Shown here: positions 35,039 through 37,756 of the stretch, one piece after another
Position numbering within the stretch: the first letter of the stretch is position 1
Layout of the letters: every line of letters starts with the position of its first letter
Assembly (NCBI RefSeq): GCF_002156705.1
Contig: NZ_CP019893.1
Coordinates: 310,001 to 374,000 of the forward strand
Direction: 5' to 3'
DNA length: 64,000 nt
DNA from: Natrarchaeobaculum aegyptiacum
GTDB lineage: Archaea; Halobacteriota; Halobacteria; Halobacteriales; Natrialbaceae
The notes under the pieces: generated by a model
Seen by the model: the letters and a program-made list of their open reading frames with translations, nothing else
Told to the model about the DNA's origin: nothing
Databases searched by the model: none
Program-made: the position numbers and the translations under genes

Positions 35039-37756
35039 TCACATGAAACTGTCCAGACCCTTCTGTTCCTGACCGCTTTTGACCTCGTTCCAGGAGACGT
35101 CGAGCGCCTCGAGGATGCGCTCGATCGGTCCCTTGAGCGTCTTCTCGAGCATGGTATCGTAGTCGACTTCGAACGCGTCGGGAATCTGGTCTTCGTACTC
35201 GAAGCAGATGACGTCCGGGTCGCGTTTGAACGCGCCGTAGAGGGGGTCCGTCTGGGGATCGAATCCCTCCTCGTCTTCCATCCGTCGGAAAAACGAGGGG
35301 TCGACCCGGTCGAGGTAGAGCCGTTTTGGCTTGCTCCCGCGCTGGAAGTTCGTTCCGAGCAGGCGGTTGGCGTACTTCGCGCCACGGACCTGGGCAGTGT
35401 CCGTGTCGTAGTTGTTCAGCCGTTTGCCGATGCCGCCAGGGATGGCGATGTCCTCGAGACTGACCTCGCCGGCGAGGACTTCCTGAATGACCTCGTTGAC
35501 GTAGTCTTTGGCGCCCTCGACGTCGCCGTCCTTGACGATCATCTCGATGACCTCGTGCTGGACGCGCTTGGTGATCGGCGCGATGTCCGAACGCTGGTAC
35601 TCGAAACCGACGATGTCGATCGTATCGACGTCTTTGCCCTCTTTCCAGACGATGTGGCCAGCGTAGCGTTTCTTCGTGCCAGCCTGGAAGAATCGTCGGT
35701 AGAGCTTCTCGAACTCGATCTGGAAGCGGTGGTCCTCGGCGTTCAGGTCCTCCCGCGCGAAGTCGCCGTAGCGGTCGTTGATGTGATCTTCGATCTCGAA
35801 GGACTGCTCGATCGCCGCCTCGTTCGAGACGTCGGCGCCCAGCTCGAGCATGACCGAATCGGTATCACCGTACGTAACCTGATAGTTCAATTCGTTTGCA
35901 GCAGTTTCGGTAAATTCGATCACTTCGCGACCAGTGGCAGTGATTGCCGCTGCCGCTTCTTTGTCATAAAGACGAAATTGTTCCCATCCCGATACTCCGT
36001 ACAACGAGTTCATGATGACCTTCACCGCACCCTGCTGGCGGTCGTACTGCTCGTACTCGGGCGTGCCGGGTTCGTGCTCGTTGCGCAGGGCCTTCTTCTC
36101 CTCGCGTTCGGCGAGCAGTTCCTCGATCATCTCGCGATTGACGCCGTCGGGCTTCTTCTGGAAGTGAGTTCCCGTGGGTGCGAGGTAGGTCTCGCCGTCG
36201 TACTCCTCGGGATCGACCTTCGTCTCCGGCGAGGCGTTGATCGTCACCATACACATCGGATACAGCGACTTCAGGTCGAGGACGGTGACGTTCTCCTTGA
36301 CCCCCGTGATCGGGTCGAAGACGGCTCCACCCTCGTATTCCTCCCCACCTTCCTGCTGTCCTTTCGAGGGGAGCGCGAACCGCCCGTGGGCGACGTGCAA
36401 AACGTACATGTCCACCGCGTCGCCGGGTGTCGGGGCGTCCTCGAGTTTACAGCCGACGAACGAACGCACCTCGTCCCAGAAGGCGATGATTTCCTGCTGT
36501 CTGTCGAGTTCGACACAGAGTTCGACGTCCCGGAGGTTGTACTCGAGCAGTTTCGTGGGGTCGTCCTCCCAGAGGTCGCCGATCTTGCCAGCGTACCGTT
36601 CCTTGCCGACACCGAGTTCGGCCTCGCCGACGGCGTCGAGTCGGTAGGAGTCCAGTTCCGAGAAGACCATCCGCTGGTAGCCATACAGCAGGTCGAAGAC
36701 GACCCGTCCCTTGATGTCGGGGCCGCCCCAGTTGCTCCGCCAGACCTCGTCGACCCGGGAGAGCCGGTCGATCGAGAGATCGTAATCGTGGTGAGGGCCG
36801 TCGAGTTCCTCGAGGCGGTCGAGGAAGTACGGCGCGTCGAAATCCTCAAAATTCCAACCTGTCAAAATATCTGGATCGGTCTCCTCGACGTACTCGAGGA
36901 AGGCCTGGAGCATCGCCTCCTCCTCTGTGAACGTGCGGACCTCGTGATCGATCGCTCCCTCGATGGGGTCGTACTCCTCGACCGCCCCGGGGATCTCGCC
37001 GTCACCTTCGGGGGCCTCGTAGAGCCACATCACGTACTCGTCGTCGTAAGAATCGTGACTGGTGAGACAGACGATCGGCTCCTCGCCGTCCTCCGGGAAG
37101 CCGTTCCGGTCGTCGACCTCGATGTCGAAGGTACAGATCCGGGGATCGGCGTCGACCTCGACGGGTTCGACTTCCTCGTGTGGTACCACGAGCGAGTCGT
37201 CCTCTGCGCGACGCTCGGGGACGCGGATGCCGCTGCGAACGTCCTTGTCGATCAGGAAGCGGTTCGGGAACAGGATGTCCGCTTCGTAATGCTGGAAGTC
37301 GTCACGAATCTGGCCGACGTCCCGCGGCGTCTGGCCGAAGATCTTCGTCAGCTTCTCCCCGCGGATGCTCTCGTAGGGCTCGCCGTCGCGACCGACCTCT
37401 CGGATACCCGTAATCCGGTCGTACTGCTCTTCGGGCGGTCGCTCGAGACTCTCGGTCGGCGCGTAAAAGTACGGGCGAAAGCCGACGACCTGCACGTGCT
37501 CGAGTTCGCCGTCGCCCGTCCGCCCGAAGACGTGTACGATCGGTTGTTCCTGATCTCCGTAGCCCGCGACCGTGTAGTCGACCTGCATCACGGCGAGTTC
37601 GAGTTCGCCGTCGGGATCTGGAAGGGTTTCCGCGACGACGTCTACCACCTCCGCAGCGTCGGTCCCGCCGTTGCCAGCGACGGCGATCGCCTCTTCGTCC
37701 GGCCTGTCGTCGCCCCCGGTAAACTCCGAGAGTCCGGTCTGGCCCGCCTCGGTCAT
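35039..37756 (-). CDS. polB: Family B DNA polymerase (replicative PolB1), intein-free
   Basis: 905 residues. Exonuclease motifs: Exo I 'CTFDIEVDDRNGF', Exo II 'ILTGWNFEDFDAPYF', Exo III 'YNLRDVELC'. Polymerase motifs: A 'DLKSLYPMCMVTINA', B 'KVIMNSLYGVSGW', C 'YGDTDSVML'. All are intact, so it should both polymerise and proofread; with PolD it is a main replicative polymerase. Haloarchaeal PolB genes often carry inteins at motifs A, B and C; none is here. Two patches differ sharply in base and codon use: 35871-36000 (47% GC, exactly between motifs B and C) and 36841-36880 (about 38%, Exo II). Confidence 0.96.
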   Translation of the reverse strand: MTEAGQTGLSEFTGGDDRPDEEAIAVAGNGGTDAAEVVDVVAETLPDPDGELELAVMQVDYTVAGYGDQEQPIVHVFGRTGDGELEHVQVVGFRPYFYAPTESLERPPEEQYDRITGIREVGRDGEPYESIRGEKLTKIFGQTPRDVGQIRDDFQHYEADILFPNRFLIDKDVRSGIRVPERRAEDDSLVVPHEEVEPVEVDADPRICTFDIEVDDRNGFPEDGEEPIVCLTSHDSYDDEYVMWLYEAPEGDGEIPGAVEEYDPIEGAIDHEVRTFTEEEAMLQAFLEYVEETDPDILTGWNFEDFDAPYFLDRLEELDGPHHDYDLSIDRLSRVDEVWRSNWGGPDIKGRVVFDLLYGYQRMVFSELDSYRLDAVGEAELGVGKERYAGKIGDLWEDDPTKLLEYNLRDVELCVELDRQQEIIAFWDEVRSFVGCKLEDAPTPGDAVDMYVLHVAHGRFALPSKGQQEGGEEYEGGAVFDPITGVKENVTVLDLKSLYPMCMVTINASPETKVDPEEYDGETYLAPTGTHFQKKPDGVNREMIEELLAEREEKKALRNEHEPGTPEYEQYDRQQGAVKVIMNSLYGVSGWEQFRLYDKEAAAAITATGREVIEFTETAANELNYQVTYGDTDSVMLELGADVSNEAAIEQSFEIEDHINDRYGDFAREDLNAEDHRFQIEFEKLYRRFFQAGTKKRYAGHIVWKEGKDVDTIDIVGFEYQRSDIAPITKRVQHEVIEMIVKDGDVEGAKDYVNEVIQEVLAGEVSLEDIAIPGGIGKRLNNYDTDTAQVRGAKYANRLLGTNFQRGSKPKRLYLDRVDPSFFRRMEDEEGFDPQTDPLYGAFKRDPDVICFEYEDQIPDAFEVDYDTMLEKTLKGPIERILEALDVSWNEVKSGQEQKGLDSFM

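Follow-up and report, generated by a model that had tools for sequence, protein, structure and literature searches.

The family B replicative DNA polymerase gene (polB) of Natrarchaeobaculum aegyptiacum contains a recoded, low-GC patch located between two empty intein insertion sites, pol-b and pol-c. In relatives of this gene, the corresponding b-c segment is swapped as one unit that begins at pol-b on the left, and the exchange is coupled to the status of the pol-b intein. Intein traffic has likely turned the b-c interval into a hot segment of gene conversion, and the polB studied here likely carries an old low-GC haplotype shared within the family. The b-c segment bears a real recombination footprint of intein homing, and a scar in this gene itself is plausible but unproven.

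The haloarchaeal genome of N. aegyptiacum is 3.93 Mb in a single contig, from which a stretch of 64,000 nucleotides (hereafter the window) was analysed. The polB gene is located at 35039..37756 on the minus strand, like all polB features below, and forms a 905-aa ORF. Its translation has the exonuclease and polymerase domains of haloarchaeal PolB (Pfam DNA_pol_B_exo1, 5e-24; DNA_pol_B, 6e-48) together with the motifs SLYP, NSLYG, and YGDTDS, and it is uninterrupted, with no in-frame intein at the sites a, b, c, or d. Searching the source genome itself gave no match to c or d inteins either. Previous studies described the a, b, c, and d inteins of polB in Halobacteria (PMC4071816) and the polB homing endonuclease of Haloferax volcanii (PMC3024317). 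The same insertion sites and intein families were found here in the relatives, whereas the polB of the window has none of those inteins. The sites were placed by aligning 122 polBs of the same family, including intein-bearing relatives. The empty pol-b site (IMN/SLYG, between 36008 and 36007) follows N583, i.e., N583/S584, and is occupied by an intein of 411-416 aa in 31 of the 122 genes; the empty pol-c site (YGD/TDS, between 35864 and 35863) follows D631, i.e., D631/T632, and an intein of about 439 aa is present there in four of the 122 genes as well as in many other haloarchaea. The empty pol-d site (GW301/N302) is occupied by an intein of about 451 aa in seven of the 122 relatives, and the empty pol-a site (K496/S497) is located at 36268..36269.

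The b-c interval (codons 584-631, 48 codons, 35864..36007) has 47.2% G+C. The first-pass annotation had reported 61 G/C among the 130 bases of 35871-36000, and this count is correct; its statement that the gene otherwise runs in the mid-60s is wrong, as polB averages 61.5% G+C and the whole window 65.0%. A maximum-likelihood fit of polB placed the low-GC3 segment at codons 587-633 (35858..35998), with a GC3 of 0.37 inside and 0.83 outside. The log-likelihood ratio of this segment (LLR 23.2) exceeds the maximum of 13.7 obtained over 2000 gene permutations. Both fitted edges fall at most four codons from the insertion points, so the pol-b and pol-c sites do bound the patch, and a recoded low-GC patch between two intein sites is confirmed. 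The segment therefore adjoins insertion sites as a co-conversion tract would, and replaced blocks occur in relatives (see below). A second low-GC3 segment (codons 294-303, 36848..36877, permutation p 0.0035), which the first-pass annotation had overlooked, covers the pol-d site. It was rejected as a scar of the d intein, because residues I298, C303, and D304, which are common to most d carriers, are absent. The fourth site, pol-a, shows no GC3 dip; it is not recoded and serves as an internal negative control.

In pairs of closely related polBs, the b-c segment is either unchanged or wholly different. An intein-free gene and a gene with the b intein (L097 and L173) share a silent identity of 94% outside the segment and 33% inside it; for two intein-free genes (L099 and L104) the values are 88% and 36%. 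The divergent tract was fitted in 36 discordant comparisons that overlap in their members and so are not independent. Its median start is residue 580 (quartiles 573, 586) and its median end residue 648 (quartiles 634, 675), with most ends lying within 631-684. A strong dip in silent identity was centred in residues 575-660 in 29 of the 30 close pairs that have a dip anywhere in the gene, against three expected by length. When a segment was counted as replaced at a silent identity <0.65, a cut-off picked post hoc with the data already seen, replacement was found in all ten independent close pairs differing in the b intein and in three of the 20 other pairs (Fisher test over the 30 independent pairs, about 1e-5). 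Replacement coupled to gain or loss of the intein is therefore present among the polB relatives, and the co-conversion by homing suggested in the first-pass annotation holds for them, as gene conversion tied to the b intein, but was not supported for this genome. In the 17 unreplaced pairs the segment diverges normally, with a silent identity of 0.86 inside and 0.87 outside, which argues against both hypermutation and relaxed codon selection.

Inteins and their flanks also travel together. Two carriers of the b intein (L180 and L181) have silent identities of 0.97 in the intein, 0.95 in the segment, and 1.00 in residues 632-675, compared with 0.65 in the left flank and about 0.78 in the far gene, showing that the right flank accompanies a b intein that has moved recently. 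This was visible in recent transfers only: when b-intein identity was compared with that of the right flank by partial correlation over all carrier pairs, no signal emerged, and the left flank (566-583) did correlate, at 0.31. Carriers of the d intein have rare silent codons and amino-acid variants in common beside the insertion. The GC3 of the inteins is 0.61-0.72, against 0.83-0.86 for the host genes, and an intein with its flank may be one travelling unit whose codon usage is unadapted to the host. A d-type polB intein in decay, with in-frame stops and broken frames, was also observed in another genome (L284, G154:C1:2938508-2940019).

The best-supported mechanism for these patterns is gene conversion at intein target sites. 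The homing endonuclease of the pol-b intein, and that of pol-c, would cut empty alleles; a homologous allele, in most cases one with the intein, would serve as the repair template, so that the intein is inserted and the DNA beside the cut is replaced. Replacement would mostly run rightwards from pol-b and stop at pol-c or slightly past it. Repeated gain, loss, and re-exchange would then give the segment a history separate from that of the rest of the gene. Endonuclease cutting presumably lay behind the arrival of the low-GC version in the lineage of N. aegyptiacum, and the ancestral donor was probably low in GC.

Among the 122 family polBs, the GC3 of the b-c interval spans 0.34 to 0.98; it is <=0.60 in 35 genes, and low values are found in both intein-bearing and intein-free genes. 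About one third of the family members lack the dip. Silent identity among the low patches is 0.53, falling to 0.41 after codons were shuffled within amino acids, and it is 0.36 between low and high patches; 28 silent positions tell the two haplotypes apart. The low haplotype comprises 37 genes and requires 21 changes on the tree of the rest of polB, against a mean of 31.8 for shuffled labels, i.e., it is weakly inherited and often exchanged. Intein-free genes make up 25 of these 37. In contrast, only six of the 31 current carriers of the b intein have the low haplotype, and the segment of the carriers is usually more GC-rich; in close pairs differing in the b intein, the intein-free member is usually the lower in GC3. 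These observations indicate that today's b intein does not leave such a patch. Low patches do occur together with inteins at c (L166), d (L164), and a (L196).

The best matches of the window's patch (84-87% at the nucleotide level) are a d-intein carrier of the same genus (L164), three intein-free genes (L099, L151, and L108), and further carriers of a d intein (L167) and a c intein (L166); genes with an a intein are also among its nearest relatives, and none of the matches points to a recent donor. The patch groups with the genus mate L164 and not with b carriers. A patch tree keeping the genus together was not rejected, and at 141 nt the patch is too short for tree tests, the AU p being 0.08-0.35 even for clearly replaced pairs. 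With a genus mate nearest, scattered genomes next, and the genus-grouping tree not rejected, the event appears either old or repeated. No donor of the patch DNA was found within the family or in 391 genomes of the class, plasmids, phages, and viral contigs, where identity outside the family was <=77%. Two polBs on viral contigs (L234, IMGVR_UViG_3300027007_000012; L235, IMGVR_UViG_3300027007_000025), 52% identical to that of the window, have no intein but a similar dip between motifs B and C, their GC3 being 0.78 and 0.74 for the gene and 0.51 and 0.49 for the segment; an identity of 65-67% ruled them out as recent donors. The low-GC polB of another genome (L285, G136) was set aside, because it is truncated over the segment and offers only ten comparable codons. 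The c-intein carriers across the class were likewise rejected as a low-GC source, since most of them have a GC-rich segment. The source genome also has a second, very divergent PolB-like gene (L002, G000:C1:935170-936156, ORF 792 aa), with 26% identity over residues 475-785.

A stricter form of the explanation is that inteins once arrived in the lineage at pol-b, pol-c, or both, bringing an extein flank of low GC, and were later lost precisely, so that an intein would once have been physically present in this polB. Such a loss is possible, and we entertain it only tentatively. The exact boundaries at pol-b and pol-c, the lower GC3 of inteins relative to their hosts, the low-GC imported flanks of d-intein carriers, and the low patches of relatives with inteins at c, d, and a are all consistent with it. 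However, the low haplotype is mostly intein-free and is rarer in b carriers, and the patch is common to genus mates, so the event predates the genus or was repeated. Moreover, the replacement between L099 and L104, both intein-free, indicates that an intein stage is not required. For the window's own patch, the co-conversion scar accordingly stays plausible but unproven, and it is more fitting to regard the patch as an old haplotype in an interval prone to conversion than as a proven b-intein scar.

Empty intein sites in other polB families, in MCM, and in DP2 (the polymerase D large subunit) bear the same signature, which in part supports the interpretation of the first-pass annotation. Intein-free polBs of the window's family (82 genes) and of other families (56 genes) were scanned in windows of 16 codons. 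In both sets the pol-b and pol-c windows are the gene's extreme of synonymous diversity; pol-c is also the lowest-GC3 extreme of the gene in both sets, and pol-b in the other families. The Walker A insertion point holds both the lowest GC3 and the highest diversity of the whole gene in 30 intein-free MCM genes, where GC3 dips again near residue 400; in 30 DP2 genes without an intein, these extremes lie on either side of the insertion point KRRN/C. The values at pol-b and pol-c, at MCM-a (which we take to be cdc21-a), and at the DP2 site lie outside the whole range of windows matched for amino-acid conservation. The footprint is, in this way, shared by other intein sites in heavy use. How deep the dip is tracks the published occupancy of the sites in Halobacteria (PMC4071816), with Spearman coefficients of -0.83 and -0.89 (n = 6 sites). 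The chances seem evenly balanced that a haloarchaeal intein moves together with a collar of roughly 30-90 host codons, which keeps its non-host codon usage and outlasts the intein.

A local codon or RNA constraint, or a relaxed codon bias, at the catalytic motifs could instead produce the dip independently of inteins, for example through slow translation of the palm domain. Intein carriers and empty alleles of MCM and DP2 have the same GC3 dip, and intein-discordant pairs are no more replaced at the site than concordant pairs; a long-standing, partly intein-independent cause is therefore possible in these two genes. Inteins also prefer conserved motifs, so causality may run the other way. As an explanation of the polB patch, constraint is nevertheless improbable, because the dip is absent from the conservation-matched windows and from pol-a, which is equally conserved and rarely used, because about a third of the family lacks it, and because close pairs are either unchanged or wholly replaced. 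It had been proposed that the same low GC and codons in close relatives with no history of inteins would mean constraint rather than transfer; many close relatives that are intein-free at present do share them, but the abrupt replacement between pairs speaks against constraint. The fold of the RNA (z only -1.9) adds little to the constraint reading, and no Rfam family reaches its gathering score. An RNA structure or RNA gene was rejected on the same grounds, the sole Rfam match (mir-598, 35426-35524) being far below the gathering score.

The first-pass annotation also offered recoding that was selected for resistance to the homing endonuclease, with synonymous changes destroying its recognition sites. 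Synonymous diversity is indeed raised exactly at the empty pol-b and pol-c sites, and target-site escape mutations have been reported for haloarchaeal mcm (PMC10643990). However, over 36 nt taken as the putative target, intein-free alleles have on average 4.0-4.8 mismatches to the consensus of b carriers, compared with 3.8 among the carriers themselves and four in the window, i.e., no clear excess. At 144 nt the patch is much longer than a single recognition site, and the low patches share position-specific codons (0.53 vs. 0.41 after shuffling), making resistance a very unlikely cause. A mutational hot spot, in which repeated double-strand breaks and error-prone repair push codons towards A/T, would fit the lower GC3 and higher diversity over tens of codons around the cut sites, but it is hardly credible given the normal silent divergence of the segment in unreplaced pairs (0.86 vs. 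0.87), the sharp-edged blocks, and the codons shared by low patches across genera.

Gene conversion driven by intein traffic, which we prefer, has known counterparts. In haloarchaeal mcm inteins, previous work described extein residues that are co-converted, inteins that are often gained and lost, and some alleles resisting invasion (PMC10643990). As in that system, flanking host DNA is imported with the intein; unlike the one or few flanking MCM residues reported there, at least 48 codons are replaced in polB, and the codon-level footprint is read here from intein-free alleles of three genes. A homing intron, the group I intron of plant mitochondrial cox1, also co-converts exons: host sequence beside the element is likewise replaced by that of the donor (PMC3192709). 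That element is an intron of a plant organelle and not an intein, whereas the tract in polB is delimited by two neighbouring insertion sites. Co-conversion itself is known, and what appears to be new is a codon footprint at an intein site that is empty: no report of one was found in a search of open-access papers, PMC4071816 and PMC3024317 included.

Intein distributions are patchy, and genes that were never invaded are hard to tell from genes after intein loss. A readable footprint at empty sites, if it persists, would let the cycle of intein gain and loss be measured from intein-free genomes, and if the collar exists, past occupancy would appear as local GC3 pits and synonymous-diversity peaks, deepest at the most used sites. 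Block replacement tied to the b intein makes natural co-conversion in polB directly countable. Should the conserved cores of PolB, MCM, and DP2 be recombined by selfish elements, gene trees and codon analyses based on them may mislead.

Although its polB is intein-free, the source genome has an intein in DP2, at KRRN/C (L306, G000:C1 about 1715700-1720970, ORF 1765 aa). Around the DP2 site, GC3 drops abruptly from -0.07 to -0.39 between 40 and 30 codons upstream and is back up by +30 codons, to the same extent whether or not the gene has an intein (L305-L306, L367-L386, L407-L426). The MCM of the source genome also carries an intein at Walker A, GDPGTGK/S (L305, G000:C1:1477314-1480832, ORF 1176 aa), the interior of which has a stretch resembling a helix-turn-helix DNA-binding segment. 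In several family members, short inteins of about 180 aa are apparent at the MCM Walker A site (frames of 879-885 aa; e.g., G061, G073, and G027), and these are probably without an endonuclease domain.
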